Translations under genes and position numbers: made by a program
Part shown: piece by piece, positions 18,765 through 24,653 of the stretch
Layout of the letters: each line of letters begins with the position of its first letter
Numbering within the stretch: the first letter of the stretch is position 1
Notes under the pieces: model-generated
The model's database searches: none
What the model was told of the DNA's origin: nothing
The model's input: the letters and a program-made list of their open reading frames with translations, nothing else
Source: Solirubrobacter deserti
Lineage (GTDB): Bacteria > Actinomycetota > Thermoleophilia > Solirubrobacterales > Solirubrobacteraceae
Direction of reading: 5' to 3'
Length of the DNA: 64,000 bases
Assembly: GCF_027587175.1 (NCBI RefSeq)
Contig: NZ_JAPCID010000005.1
Location: 124,001-188,000, forward strand

Positions 18765-20804
18765 TCAGGACTTCGGTGCTTCTCGCATCACCTTTTGGTG
18801 TATCTCGAAGGCCAGCTCGGCGCGGACGCGCCAGCCGCCGTCGCCGGTCGGCCCGGCCTGGAGCGTGCCGGAGTAGAGCTCGACGCGTTCGAGCATCCCG
18901 CGCAGGCCGCGCCCGCCGCCGGCGCCGACGCCCTGCCGGCCGGGCGCGTTGACGACCTCGATCACGAGCCGTTCGTCCATGCGCTCCAGGCGCACCGTCA
19001 CCGGCACGGGGCCGGCGTGGCGGCCGACGTTGGTCAGCGCCTCCTGGACGATGCGGACCGTCGTCAGCGCGAGCGGCAGCGGCAGCTCCGCCGCGTCCAC
19101 GCGCAGATCGAGCGTGACCGGCAAGCCGGAGCGTTCGGCCAGCCGCGTGATGTCGTCCGCGGGCGCCGCGCCCGCGCCGAGCCGGACCAGGTCGCGCTGG
19201 ACGTCGCTCGCCACCTGCGCGACGGCGATGCCGGCGCGGCGGGCGCGCGCGAGGTCGAGCGCGGCGTAGCGGACCGCGACCGCGGCCTGGAGGGTGATGA
19301 TCGTGACGGCGTGACCGACGACGTCGTGCAGCTCACGCGCGGCGGCCAGCCGCTCGGCCATCACCCGCTCGCGGGCCCGGACCTCCTGCGCCCGGTCCGC
19401 GCGCTCGTGGGCGCGACGCGCGCGCACCGAAGACGCCACGCGGTCGCGCACGAGCAGGCCTCCCAGCCCGCACGCGAGCGGCAGCAGCCCCGCGAAGCTG
19501 TACGCGTAGAACTGGTACGGCATCTCCTCGAGCACCATGCACACCAGCGACGTGACCGTGCCCGCCGCGACGACCACCACGCCGCCCGTCCGCCGGCGCG
19601 CGTGCGCGGCGCCGATGAACGTCACCGCGGCCGCCGCGTAGAACTGCGAGAACGTCAGCGTGCTCAGGTCGTGCACGAGCATCCGGGCGACGACCAGCGC
19701 GAACACGGCCAGCGCGGCCGTCACCGGCCAGCGCCGGCGCAGCAGCAGCGGCAGGGGATAGAGCACCGCCGTCACCCACGGCGAGGCCGGCCCGAGCACC
19801 GGCCCGGGCACGGGGAACGCGGGCACGAAGGGCTCGATCGCGACCGTCAGCCGGTCGGCGAGCCCGAGCAACGTCAGCAGGACGACCGGCGCCGCCAGCC
19901 CGACCGCGTGCCCCACGCGGGTGCGCCGCGCGGCCGCGACGGCCGACCCGAGCGCCCGCGTGCCGTCGCCGGCCCGCGCGTCTGCGCTGTCGCCGTCCCG
20001 TCGCGCCGCGGCCTCGTCGCCCGCCGCCACCGCGAGCGTCGGCTCCTCGTCGGGCGTGCGCAGCAGCCGCACCGCGCGGCGCAGCTCGAGCATCGCCGCC
20101 TGGGCGCGGTCGTGCACGGCGGCCATCAGCTCGGCGAACTCGTCCGCGGCCGCGTGACGGGCGCGGTCGGCGAGCGGGCGGACGCCGTTGAGCAACATCG
20201 CCACAGCGGCGTCGACCTCGCTCGCGATCCGTGCACGCTCGCCGGCCAGCGCAAGGTCGATCCGGCGCTCGGCACCGGCCTCGAGCTCGAGCACCTCACG
20301 CTCGCGGCGCTCGGCCTCGCCGCGCCGGTCGCGTAGCGCGACGCCCGCGCTCACGCCGCCGATCGCGAGCGTCAGCGTGTGCGCGTAGGCGCCGAGCGAC
20401 GGGCTCGCGTAGACGCCGAAGCCGGCGAGATCCATCGTCACCACCGAGAGCACGAGCAGCCCGCCGGCGGCGAGCCCGCGCCGCGGGAAGCTGCGCGGCG
20501 GCGCGCCAGCCTCCGAGAGGAACAGCGCGACGAGCAGCACGACGCTCTGCGCGGCGGCGCCCGGCGCCCGCTGCTCGGCGGCGTCACGCGTCGCCACGAT
20601 CGCCACCGCGGCCAGCGCGGCCCACCCGGGCGCGCGTCCCGCCAGCAGCAGCGGAAGCGGCAGCACGAACGCCCACAGCATCACCACGAGCGAGAACGGC
20701 GCCCCGCCCGGCCCGGTCACCTGCCAGGCCGCCTCGCCCGCGCTCCAGACCGCGAGCGCGAGGACGAGCGCTGCGGCGCGGCGGCTCGTGCCGAAGACCA
20801 TCAC
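18765..20804 (-). CDS. membrane histidine kinase with an internal degenerate kinase half
   Basis: 679 residues from GTG 20804 (ATG 20801 adjacent). The first half has membrane helices (about 10-160), then ERARIASEVDAAVAMLLNGV...ELRRAVRLLR, which matches a HisKA_3 phosphotransfer helix pair with no His. The second half has another membrane region (about 300-460), an active RELHDVVGHAVTIITLQ with H493, and an HATPase with EALTNVGRHAG and a GRGLRGMLER lid; the G1 motif reads VVNAPG rather than DDG, so catalysis may be weak. The cognate regulator is 73 bases upstream on the same strand. The domain plan repeats that of the two kinases at 1319-5023. Confidence 0.85.
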   Translation of the reverse strand: MMVFGTSRRAAALVLALAVWSAGEAAWQVTGPGGAPFSLVVMLWAFVLPLPLLLAGRAPGWAALAAVAIVATRDAAEQRAPGAAAQSVVLLVALFLSEAGAPPRSFPRRGLAAGGLLVLSVVTMDLAGFGVYASPSLGAYAHTLTLAIGGVSAGVALRDRRGEAERREREVLELEAGAERRIDLALAGERARIASEVDAAVAMLLNGVRPLADRARHAAADEFAELMAAVHDRAQAAMLELRRAVRLLRTPDEEPTLAVAAGDEAAARRDGDSADARAGDGTRALGSAVAAARRTRVGHAVGLAAPVVLLTLLGLADRLTVAIEPFVPAFPVPGPVLGPASPWVTAVLYPLPLLLRRRWPVTAALAVFALVVARMLVHDLSTLTFSQFYAAAAVTFIGAAHARRRTGGVVVVAAGTVTSLVCMVLEEMPYQFYAYSFAGLLPLACGLGGLLVRDRVASSVRARRAHERADRAQEVRARERVMAERLAAARELHDVVGHAVTIITLQAAVAVRYAALDLARARRAGIAVAQVASDVQRDLVRLGAGAAPADDITRLAERSGLPVTLDLRVDAAELPLPLALTTVRIVQEALTNVGRHAGPVPVTVRLERMDERLVIEVVNAPGRQGVGAGGGRGLRGMLERVELYSGTLQAGPTGDGGWRVRAELAFEIHQKVMREAPKS

Positions 20805-20877
20805 CGTCCAGCGTGCAGCGCGAGCGGGCCGCGCGCATCAATCGAACGGTGTGCCCGAGCGCGCCGTTCGGTGCGCG

Positions 20878-21546
20878 TCACCCGGCGGCGCGGCCGCCCG
20901 GCCGGACGAGCCCGCTCTCGTAGGCCAGCACCACCGCGCCGACGCGGCTACGCACGCCCAGCTTGCTCAGCAGCCGCGTGACGTGGGACTTGACCGTCGC
21001 GTCGCTGAGGAACAGCTCGTTGCCCATCTCGGCGTTCGACTTGCCCTGCGCGAGCAGCCGCCAGACCTCACGCTCGCGTTCGGTGAGGTCCGAGAAGCGC
21101 TGCCCCAGCTGCTCGTCGGGCGCGGGGCGCACGAGGTACTCCTCGATCAGCCGCCGCGTCAGCACCGGGTCCAGCACGGACTCCCCGGACGCGATCGTCC
21201 GCACCGCCGCGGCCAGGCGCTCGGGCGCGAGCGCCTTGAGCAGGAACCCGCTCGCCCCGGCACGCAGCGCCCTGTAGACGTACTCGTCCTGGTCGAACGT
21301 CGTCACCATCACGATCCGCGCGCGCGAGCCGGCGGCGAGGATCCGGCGCGTCGCCTCGATCCCGTCCAGCACAGGCATCTGGACGTCCATCAGCACCACA
21401 TCCGGGTGCGTGCGCAACACCCCTTCGACCGCGGCGGCGCCGTCGGAGGCCTCGCCCGCGAGCTCCATGTCCGGTTCGAGCTCCAGCAGCGCGCACAGCC
21501 CGCCGCGCACCAACGCCTCGTCCTCGGCCACGAACACCTTCAGCAC
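20878..21546 (-). CDS. NarL/LuxR-family response regulator
   Basis: 222 residues. Receiver residues E8/D9, phospho-acceptor D54 in LMDVQMP, T82/T83 and K104 are present, then a LuxR helix-turn-helix (LTEREREVWRLLAQGKSNAEMGNELFL). The frame is open far upstream, but the receiver begins at GTG 21546, which I take as the start; no Shine-Dalgarno is evident. Upstream in the operon of the doubled kinase at 18765-20804 and probably its partner. It is highly similar to the regulator at 89-754, including the C-terminal AYE(S/T)GLVRPG, so DNA sites may be shared between the two systems. Confidence 0.9.
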   Translation of the reverse strand: MLKVFVAEDEALVRGGLCALLELEPDMELAGEASDGAAAVEGVLRTHPDVVLMDVQMPVLDGIEATRRILAAGSRARIVMVTTFDQDEYVYRALRAGASGFLLKALAPERLAAAVRTIASGESVLDPVLTRRLIEEYLVRPAPDEQLGQRFSDLTEREREVWRLLAQGKSNAEMGNELFLSDATVKSHVTRLLSKLGVRSRVGAVVLAYESGLVRPGGRAAG

Positions 21547-21568
21547 GCGGGCAAGGGTAATGCGGCGC

Positions 21569-21976
21569 TCAGACGCCGATGGCCGCGTCGATCGCGACCG
21601 CTCCGCGGGCGCGCGCGACCGAGACGCGATGATGGCCGTCGCGCACGGCGTACCCGTCGCGCACCCGCACGACGGAGATCGGCGGCAGCGCGACCCCGCG
21701 CTCCTCAGCCGTCCAGATGCTCTCCCAGCGCCGGCGCGCCGCCGCCCGCACGGGGGCGAACCGCTCGTCGAACTGCGTCGCGCGGCTCGGCTCGAGCGTG
21801 CCGCGGATCTCGTCCAGCGCGATCTCGCGCACGCCGCCGGTCGCCGCGACCGGATGCGCGCCGGTGTAGACGGGCAGCTGGACACGCGCGCGGCGGAGCT
21901 TGCGCATCCGTGCACCGCGGCGGGCTCGGGTGAACGCGGTCTCCGCGTCGATGAGGGTGTTACCGGTCTTGAGCAT
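21569..21976 (-). CDS. ParB-like nuclease-domain protein
   Basis: About 135 residues. The C-terminal part, LPPISVVRVRDGYAVRDGHHRVSVARARG, matches the ParB/sulfiredoxin-type core with the DGHHR motif. The N-terminal half (TAFTRARRGARMRKLRRA) is basic and helical. The family is common in Actinobacteria as small stand-alone proteins with no proven role. ATG 21976 gives the best family-like start (MLKTGNTLIDAETAFTRARR); an ATG at 22009 would add 11 residues. It sits 23 bases upstream of the regulator on the same strand and may share its transcript. Confidence 0.65.
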   Translation of the reverse strand: MLKTGNTLIDAETAFTRARRGARMRKLRRARVQLPVYTGAHPVAATGGVREIALDEIRGTLEPSRATQFDERFAPVRAAARRRWESIWTAEERGVALPPISVVRVRDGYAVRDGHHRVSVARARGAVAIDAAIGV

Positions 21977-22273
21977 GTCTGCAGTGTCGGCCTGAGACCC
22001 TCGGCGCACATCGGGCGAACGGGCCGAGTTGTCGCCTTACAGCCCTTACCGGCAAGACTGGACGTATGTACTGATGGACGCGAGACGTTTCCGTCGATCG
22101 GACAACTGCCGTTCACAAACGCACCACCAGCGCGAAAAACTAGAAAGACGAGTTTTGCGATTTGGAGCGGGAGCGAACCCCTGAGTGCGCTGGATCGAAC
22201 CGGAGGGGTTGCGCAACGTTCGTCGCTTGAGGTAGAACACCCGCCGGGTTCGGAGGTTCGGAGGGTGGAACAA
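21977..22273. other. divergent intergenic region, AT-richer than its surroundings
   Basis: About 300 bases between divergent genes. It is clearly richer in A/T than the flanks. It contains a small hairpin (AAAACT at 22136-22141 with AGTTTT at 22151-22156) and the palindrome TTGCGCAA near 22211. I see no open frame with a believable start. It probably holds both divergent promoters, but I cannot place them. Confidence 0.4.
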
Positions 22274-23605
22274 ATGGAGCATGGACCGGCTCGGAGGCCG
22301 GCGCTTCCTACGGTGTCGCTGGCCGCAGCGGGTGCTGCGGCGGTGTCGCTCGCGGTCGTGGCCGTCCCCTGGCTGCGAATGTCGTTCGAGGCGCCGGGGT
22401 TACGGGTCGCACTCGAAACCGGGGGTGCCTTACTGGCCGCGACGACGGTCGCCTTACTCGTGCGCCAATGCGGCTTACGCTCGCGCCCTGATCATCTGTG
22501 GCTGACGCTGGGGCTCGTCGTCCTGGCCGCCACCTCACTGGGCGTCGCCGGCCTGATCGTCGCCGGTGCCTGGTCTGGAGCCGAGGCGCGCTACGCCATG
22601 GGCGGCAACCTCGCCGGCACCGTGCTGCTCGCCGTCGCGGCCTTCGCGCCCGCCGGCCGCCTGAAGGTCCGGGCACGCAGCATCCTCGCGCCCGGCACGC
22701 TGATCGCGGCGCTCGTCTTCGCCGCCACCGCACTCTTCGCCGGTGCGGCCCCCGGCGCCGGCCGCGTCCCGGTGCAGGTCGCGATCGCCATCACGCTGGT
22801 GGTCGCCGCCATCGGCCTTGCCCGCCGCGCCAGCGCACGCGACGAGGCGCTGCTGCGCTGGATCGCGATCGCCGTCGTGCTCGGCGGGTTCGCGAAGCTC
22901 GACTACGCGCTGTTCCCGCCGACGGGCGCCGACAACGTGCACCTCGGCGACGCGCTGCGGATGCTCGCGTGGGCGACCCTGTTCGCCGGCGTGCTCGGGG
23001 AGCTGCGCCGCAACGTGCGCGCCCGCGCCGACGCCGCCGTCGATCGAGAGCGCCGCCGCCTCGCCCGTGAGCTGCACGACGGCGTCGCGCAGGAGCTCGC
23101 CTTCATCCGCCGCCGCGCCGGCCGCTTGGGGGAGACGGCCGACGGCATCGAGATCCTCGGCGCTGCCGAGCGCGCGCTGGAGGACTCGCGGCGCGCGATC
23201 GAGGCGCTCGTGCCGCCCGCGTCCGAGACGCTGGACGTCGCGCTGGAGCGCCTCGGCGCGAAGCTCGCGAGCGAGTGCGATCTCGAGGTCCAGGTCAACG
23301 TCCGGGCACACGGCGAGGTCAGCGACGAGGTGCGCGCCGAGCTGTCCCGGATCATCTGCGAGGCGACTCGCAACGCCGCGCACCACGGCGGCGCGCGCCA
23401 CGTGCGCGTCGACGTCGCCGGCACGCCGCTGGCCGTGCGGATCATCGACGACGGCAGCGGCTTCCGCGACGGCGCCAGCAGCGGCCTGGGCATCGCGGGG
23501 TACGGCCTGATCGCCATGCGCGAGCGCGCCGAGCTGGTGGGCGGGAAGTTCAGCCTCGAGTCCGTCCGCGGCGCGGGTACTCTCGTGCAGGTGGTGCTGC
23601 CATAG
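22274..23605 (+). CDS. membrane sensor histidine kinase (NarX-like HisKA_3)
   Basis: 443 residues. Eight or so hydrophobic segments fill residues 10-235, without an extracellular domain. The phosphotransfer domain has H268 in RRLARELHDGVAQELAFI, and the HATPase has ICEATRNAAHHGGA, IIDDGSGF and a GIAGYGLIAMRER lid, so it looks active. Start ATG 22274 follows GGAGG with 9 nt spacing. The stop TAG at 23603-23605 overlaps the apparent start of the next regulator. Unlike the other kinases here it has one membrane module only. Confidence 0.85.
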   Translation: MEHGPARRPALPTVSLAAAGAAAVSLAVVAVPWLRMSFEAPGLRVALETGGALLAATTVALLVRQCGLRSRPDHLWLTLGLVVLAATSLGVAGLIVAGAWSGAEARYAMGGNLAGTVLLAVAAFAPAGRLKVRARSILAPGTLIAALVFAATALFAGAAPGAGRVPVQVAIAITLVVAAIGLARRASARDEALLRWIAIAVVLGGFAKLDYALFPPTGADNVHLGDALRMLAWATLFAGVLGELRRNVRARADAAVDRERRRLARELHDGVAQELAFIRRRAGRLGETADGIEILGAAERALEDSRRAIEALVPPASETLDVALERLGAKLASECDLEVQVNVRAHGEVSDEVRAELSRIICEATRNAAHHGGARHVRVDVAGTPLAVRIIDDGSGFRDGASSGLGIAGYGLIAMRERAELVGGKFSLESVRGAGTLVQVVLP

Positions 23606-24255
23606 ACCCCGTACGAGTACTCGTCGCCGACGATCACGCGCCGACGCGGGACGACATCGCGGTAGCGCTCGGGCGGGACGGCGGCTTCGAGATCATCGCC
23701 ACCGCGGAGGACGCGCCCGGCGCGGTCGACGCGGCGCTGCGCGAGCAGCCGGACCTCGCGCTGCTGGACGTCAACATGCCCGGCAGCGGGCTGGCGGCCG
23801 CGTGGGAGATCAGCGCGCGCCTGCCCTCCACCCGGGTCGTGATGCTCACGATCTCGCGCGACGACAGCCACGTGTTCGCGGCCCTGCGCGCCGGCGCGGC
23901 GGGCTACCTGCTCAAGGACACCGAGACCGAACGGCTGCCGACCGCGCTCAAGGACGTCATGAACGGCGAGGCCGCGCTGCCGGTCACGCTCGTCACGCGG
24001 CTGGTCGAGGAGTTCCGCGACCGCGCGCCGCGCCGCCGCGCGCTGATGCCGAGCCGCGAGGGCGAGCCGCGGCTCACCTCCCGCGAGTGGGAGGTGCTGG
24101 AGCTGATGCGGCGCAAGATGACGACGGCGCAGATCGCGCGCACGCTCGTCGTCTCGCCGGCGACGGTGCGCTCCCACGTGGCCGCGATCCTGCGCAAGCT
24201 GCGCGTGCCGGACCGTGACGCGGCAGTGAGGTTGCTGGACAATCCGGAGCCGTGA
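23602..24255 (+). CDS. LuxR-family response regulator with apparent ATA start
   Basis: About 217 residues: receiver with D10/D11, phospho-acceptor D56 in LLDVNMPG and K105 in YLLKD, then a LuxR helix-turn-helix (LTSREWEVLELMRRKMTTAQIART). The frame has no ATG, GTG, TTG or CTG between an unrelated GTG at 23275 and the middle of the receiver. The only codon at the expected place is ATA 23602-23604, giving the family-typical DPVRVLVADDH and overlapping the kinase stop (ATAG). An AGGTGG lies 7 nt upstream. Coupled initiation at ATA is the simplest reading; a sequencing error is the alternative. Partner of the kinase at 22274. Confidence 0.8.
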   Translation: MDPVRVLVADDHAPTRDDIAVALGRDGGFEIIATAEDAPGAVDAALREQPDLALLDVNMPGSGLAAAWEISARLPSTRVVMLTISRDDSHVFAALRAGAAGYLLKDTETERLPTALKDVMNGEAALPVTLVTRLVEEFRDRAPRRRALMPSREGEPRLTSREWEVLELMRRKMTTAQIARTLVVSPATVRSHVAAILRKLRVPDRDAAVRLLDNPEP

Positions 24256-24653
24256 AGGCCCACGGCGAGTTCCTCGCCGGAGCGGTAGGTGAGATCGCCG
24301 GCGTCTCCGGCACCACGATCGGCCAGTGGGCGCGCTGGGGGTACATCCGCGCGTCCCGCTCCGACGGGGACCCGCACGTGTACGCGTTCGAGGACGTGCT
24401 GGAGGCGCTGATGGTCAAGGCGCTGCTCGACCGTGGCGTCTCGCGGCCGATGATCCGGCGCGCGATCGCGCATCTGGACGGCGACTGGCCGCTGACCGAC
24501 GCGCAGCTGGCGACCACGCGCAACGGGCGCCGCCCCCGGATCGTGCTGCGCGAGCCGGACGGCGCCTTCGTGCTCTCCCCCCGGGGCTGGCAGCTGATGG
24601 TCGCGCCGCCGCCGCTCGAGGACGTTCGCCTGCGCGTTAAGCGCGACGGGTAG
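24252..24653 (+). CDS. MerR-type helix-turn-helix protein
   Basis: 133 residues. The N-terminal 70 residues resemble a MerR winged helix (VGEIAGVSGTTIGQWARWGYIRASRSDGDPHVYAFEDVLEAL), followed by a short helix pair and a small C-terminal beta part. No long MerR coiled coil or ligand-binding Cys cluster is visible. GTG 24252 overlaps the regulator's TGA (GTGA), placing it in the kinase-regulator operon as a third component. It may be a second DNA-binding output or an accessory factor; that is inference. Its stop codon forms part of the next gene's probable -10 box. Confidence 0.7.
   Translation: MKAHGEFLAGAVGEIAGVSGTTIGQWARWGYIRASRSDGDPHVYAFEDVLEALMVKALLDRGVSRPMIRRAIAHLDGDWPLTDAQLATTRNGRRPRIVLREPDGAFVLSPRGWQLMVAPPPLEDVRLRVKRDG

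Follow-up and report, generated by a model that had tools for sequence, protein, structure and literature searches.

A conserved ATA codon overlapping the kinase stop codon as the probable start of a response regulator gene in Solirubrobacter

Introduction

How does translation of a response regulator begin when its reading frame offers no usable ATG, GTG, TTG or CTG? This question is raised by a kinase–regulator pair of Solirubrobacter deserti, a species of a genus of soil bacteria, located in the window, that is, the whole stretch of 64,000 nucleotides analysed here. The initial annotation of this stretch had suggested that the regulator starts at an ATA codon embedded in the stop codon of its kinase. 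Initiation at AUA has precedents but is very unusual. On the basis of the comparisons given below, we infer that the regulator is translated from the AUA at 23602-23604, with a probability of roughly 0.8.

Results

The upstream gene of the pair (22265..23605, + strand) encodes a sensor histidine kinase with an N-terminal membrane part. Its probable start, which is an estimate, is the GTG at 22265, and its stop codon is the TAG at 23603-23605. The Pfam domains HisKA_3 (34.1 bits) and HATPase_c (35.2 bits) both score over their cut-offs, which places the protein among the HisKA_3 sensor kinases. The regulator gene follows on the same strand (23602..24255). Its translation from the ATA begins IDPVRVLVADDH..., and the frame is open up to the TGA at 24253-24255, yielding 217 amino acids. 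Response_reg is matched at residues 6-116 and GerE, the LuxR helix-turn-helix, at 158-211, with Pfam scores of 70.1 and 54.1 bits, both over the cut-offs, as expected for a NarL/LuxR-type regulator. Residue 6 corresponds to profile position 1, and the receiver is thus intact and in frame, as had been claimed. The best score against the NCBIfam equivalog for NarL itself is 121.9 bits, far under the cut-off of 250, and the protein is therefore assigned at the family level only. The next gene of the operon, a candidate MerR-like DNA-binding protein recognized by eye (24252..24653, + strand), has its GTG start at 24252, where it overlaps the regulator stop in the usual form, GTGA. A second NarL-type kinase/regulator pair adjoins on the minus strand (18765-22116), such that two two-component systems of this kind stand back to back.

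We now turn to the junction, which was read directly as GTGCTGCCATAGACCCC. The last kinase codons are GTG CAG GTG GTG CTG CCA TAG, giving the protein end ...VQVVLP, and the regulator frame from 23602 reads ATA GAC CCC GTA CGA GTA CTC GTC GCC GAC GAT CAC. The motif ATAG at 23602..23605 (+ strand) joins the ATA (23602-23604) to the kinase TAG, in full agreement with the positions annotated before, and provided that the ATA is the start, it constitutes a four-nucleotide start/stop overlap on the same strand. The Shine-Dalgarno-like AGGTGG that had been reported 7 nt upstream of the ATA is indeed found there, at 23589..23594 (+ strand), within the last kinase codons. The duplex of this region with the anti-Shine-Dalgarno sequence has a calculated energy of −9.6 kcal/mol in four species, the one of the window included, and −5.6 kcal/mol in two, to be compared with a mean of −3.8 for the random background and a range from −12 to about +1 for ordinary overlapping starts in these genomes. 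Since the motif is located in the conserved ...VQVVLP ending of the kinase, the match is partly explained by coding. The local RNA structure near the start is only mildly weak.

A search of 146 genomes of the family shows that the regulator is present in all seven genomes of the genus, with 89-100% identity. These represent six species, as the window genome (G000) and G133 belong to the same one. Every one of them carries CC-ATA-GA[C/G] at the junction, with ATAGA being identical throughout (G000, G133, G134, G135, G136, G137 and G138), while the surrounding silent sites vary. A sequencing or assembly error at this codon, for which only the oddity of the codon itself speaks, is refuted by the agreement of seven assemblies from six species, including a same-species assembly (G133) that differs from the window at 12 of the 64,000 bases, and its probability is negligible. 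The initial annotation had proposed to look for an ATG or GTG at this position in relatives or in a re-read; the ATA in all seven genomes rules out both an error and an isolated mutation.

The absence of a usable canonical start in the window species, noted previously, holds on inspection of the whole frame. Upstream, the nearest in-frame candidates are a CTG at codon −82 and a GTG at codon −109, both of them deep inside the kinase. Downstream, the first CTG is codon 46 and the first ATG codon 59; a start at codon 46 would remove the first strand of the receiver together with its acidic pair (residues 10-11). Initiation far upstream, at the CTG or the GTG, would use codons that do exist in the window species, but in four others a stop interrupts the regulator frame at codon −27 (G138), −45 (G134 and G135) or −51 (G137), with no ATG, GTG, TTG or CTG between the stop and the receiver domain. 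This option is accordingly exceedingly improbable.

More relevant is the possibility that translation starts at codon 4 (GTA in the window, 23611-23613), to give the product (M)RVLVADDH. Many response regulators begin with MRVL, and codon 4 is a GTG in three of the species (G134, G135 and G137), where it could also serve as the start. However, this codon is not conserved: the window species has GTA, G138 has ATA and G136 has GTC. At codon 1, in contrast, every species has ATA. GTA and GTC are moreover not expected to beat ATA as start codons, and nothing canonical is found in codons 1-6 of G000/G133, G138 and G136. Thus, the ATA is present in six of six species, three of which are without any usable canonical start and three of which have the GTG at codon 4. 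Because codon 4 varies, codon 1 is the sole start candidate common to all congeners, and initiation at codon 4 is quite unlikely. The ATA at codon 4 of G138 (locus position 1510-1512) is a second ATA in that gene, although this codon is almost absent from the genes of the genus.

The codon usage bears on another alternative, namely that a −1 ribosomal frameshift at the kinase end produces a kinase-receiver fusion in which the ATA is read as isoleucine. The regulator frame is indeed the −1 frame relative to the kinase, and it is open upstream through the kinase end in all species. In the verified genes, however, ATA accounts for only 3 of 54,328 sense codons and 0.3% of the isoleucine codons, internal isoleucine being nearly always ATC (98.4%). 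There is also no slippery heptamer of the form X XXY YYZ: the junction is CTG CCA TAG in five species and CTC CCA TAG in one, and in five of them the P-site CCA would need to re-pair with GCC. The codons after the ATA, in addition, carry what looks like a mark of initiation. Among codons 2-8 (23605..23625, + strand), rare codons ending in A or T are frequent (GTA, CGA, GTA), a signature of initiation regions. Counting related species separately, 12 of 42 codons in this segment end in A or T over the six species, compared to 60 of 1158 in the gene body (Fisher p 2e-6). The same trend is seen for 25 ordinary overlapping starts, with 15% versus 4%. This mark is compatible with initiation at codon 1 as well as at codon 4, and it argues against a frameshift. 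The frameshift, which had been named earlier as the alternative that could overturn an ATA start, is on these grounds very unlikely.

Could the gene instead be untranslated, or a decaying remnant? The missing canonical start would fit such a scenario, but the regulator retains 89-95% identity across the genus with an intact reading frame in all species. The pairwise substitutions over 213 codons number 52-86 at third positions and 12-31 at the first and second positions together. As judged from this pattern, the gene is under purifying selection, and a remnant is most improbable.

Returning to initiation at the ATA, we considered how far its conservation may reflect chance. With TAG as the kinase stop, the first codon of the regulator has to be NTA, where N is the silent wobble base of the last proline codon of the kinase. 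CCA makes up 2% of the proline codons, yet it is present at the kinase end in six of six species. Of 11 other sites with CCA, 2 have it in all three of the other compared species; of 37 genes with a TAG stop, 17 retain it in all three. The joint chance conservation of CCA and TAG, calculated as a product that ignores the tree, comes to roughly 0.08 for four species, and would be lower for six. Conservation of CCA-TAG across one genus is only moderately improbable by descent alone, and the six species are not independent samples. We regard it as supporting but not decisive.

To place the codon in its genomic context, 800 kb were compared between two species, of which 332 genes passed a codon-pattern test based on third-position substitutions; the survey listing includes some wrong-frame ORFs and was read by eye. 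The regulator is the only conserved ATA start among the about 330 verified genes, and the only other ATAG match in the survey is without a counterpart in the second species. A genus-wide use of ATA starts was considered and is rejected, as there is only this one conserved case in 800 kb. Another option considered was a rare start at the gene for IF3 itself, which is unsupported: in each of the seven genomes, an ATG or GTG stands at the conserved N-terminus of infC. Taken together, the single ATA case and the ordinary infC starts give no sign of a genus-wide change in the start-codon rules.

In the same survey, a few genes appear likely to start with CTG. For an ABC transporter ATP-binding gene (G133:C1, about 491930, +), the only plausible starts are CTG, the first of them in a CTGA overlap, and G134 also has CTG at the same place. 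A sigma-factor-like gene (about 539070, +, same contig) has no ATG, GTG or TTG before its conserved part, and its likely start is a CTG that lies four codons inside the open frame. In an RNase HII-like gene (about 520735, +), 38 perfectly conserved codons precede the first ATG, GTG or TTG, and a CTG is the candidate start. A 3-methyladenine DNA glycosylase-like gene (about 797355, +) has a TTAG overlap, where G134 has CTG, and its first canonical start is codon 10. Finally, the conserved N-terminus (V[TS]P[DE][ED]V) of a minus-strand ORF of G133 (387356-388433 of the 400-kb piece) and of its G134 ortholog begins with GTA; the latter has no canonical start nearby, and G137 has a GTG one codon earlier.

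As to the origin of the junction, the matches located behind a kinase in other genera were read by eye; most of them show GTGA (G013, G015, G026, G028, G029, G056, G099, G101 and G110), while CTGA is seen in G001 and TGATG in G031. A degenerate pattern of the ATAG junction, searched in 232 genomes of the order, matches six of the seven congeners and no genome outside the genus; G138 escapes it because its codon 4 is ATA, where the pattern requires GTN. Since other genera mostly have GTGA and the pattern is confined to this genus, ATAG was most likely derived in the stem of Solirubrobacter.

Discussion

A mechanism that would account for these results is termination-reinitiation at the overlap. 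The ribosome, or its 30S subunit, finishing the kinase at UAG would move back one nucleotide and restart at the overlapping AUA, held in place by the AGGUGG match in the last kinase codons, and the initiator fMet-tRNA would read AUA via a mismatch at the third position. Stop/start overlaps are known to couple translation in this way (PMC6728339). AUA starts have been described in Staphylococcus aureus for infC, ccpN and citZ; relative to AUG, the reporters gave about 10% output in poor medium, and ccpN reached up to 30% in rich medium (PMC13009471). In Escherichia coli, an rpoS mutant with ATA replacing ATG had at most 5-fold less of the protein (PMC12864459). As AUA is a poor start codon, the regulator is probably scarce. 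Considering both that the overlap geometry couples such pairs and that AUA output is reduced elsewhere, it is expected to be made at a low, kinase-linked rate; by this reasoning, its output would be well below one copy per kinase and confined to conditions in which the kinase is translated.

One can speculate further that an ancestral GTGA was exchanged for ATAG in Solirubrobacter, and that ATAG was then retained because inefficient restarting at AUA holds the regulator at a low level, coupled to the kinase and perhaps sensitive to IF3 or to growth. We consider this a tentative proposal, somewhat doubtful as it stands. If it is true, the start codon would act as a fixed setting for the stoichiometry of a two-component system. 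With its genus-wide AUA start, a coupled pair of this kind offers a natural system for testing whether termination-reinitiation relaxes start-codon choice, and the pair is also suited for testing whether the AUA start sets the kinase-to-regulator ratio. On the practical side, gene finders limited to ATG, GTG and TTG would probably truncate the regulator or extend it into the other frame of the kinase.

AUA starts and four-nucleotide stop/start overlaps are thus each already known, while an ATAG overlap kept across a genus is apparently unreported within the literature searched. In the open-access literature we found no earlier report of a genus-wide conserved ATAG overlap, nor of ATA/AUA starts in response regulators or in Solirubrobacter.

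The closest known cases are ccpN and infC of S. aureus (PMC13009471), in which an AUA start is likewise conserved and accompanied by a strong Shine-Dalgarno match; ccpN, too, is a regulator gene. Those genes have their own extended Shine-Dalgarno sequence, their reduced yield has been measured, and no restart in a kinase stop codon is described for them. Here, in contrast, the organism is a high-GC actinobacterium, the ATA overlaps the TAG of the kinase gene paired with the regulator, and the start is proposed from a comparison of sequences. The junction also resembles the ATGA/GTGA four-nucleotide overlaps (PMC6728339), where the downstream gene starts a single base ahead of the upstream stop and the Shine-Dalgarno sequence is inside the upstream gene, the difference being that ATA is here combined with TAG instead of ATG or GTG with TGA. 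Compared with the NarL/FixJ-type regulators that accompany HisKA_3 kinases, finally, the domains, the gene order, the receiver and the helix-turn-helix are the same, and only the start codon differs.
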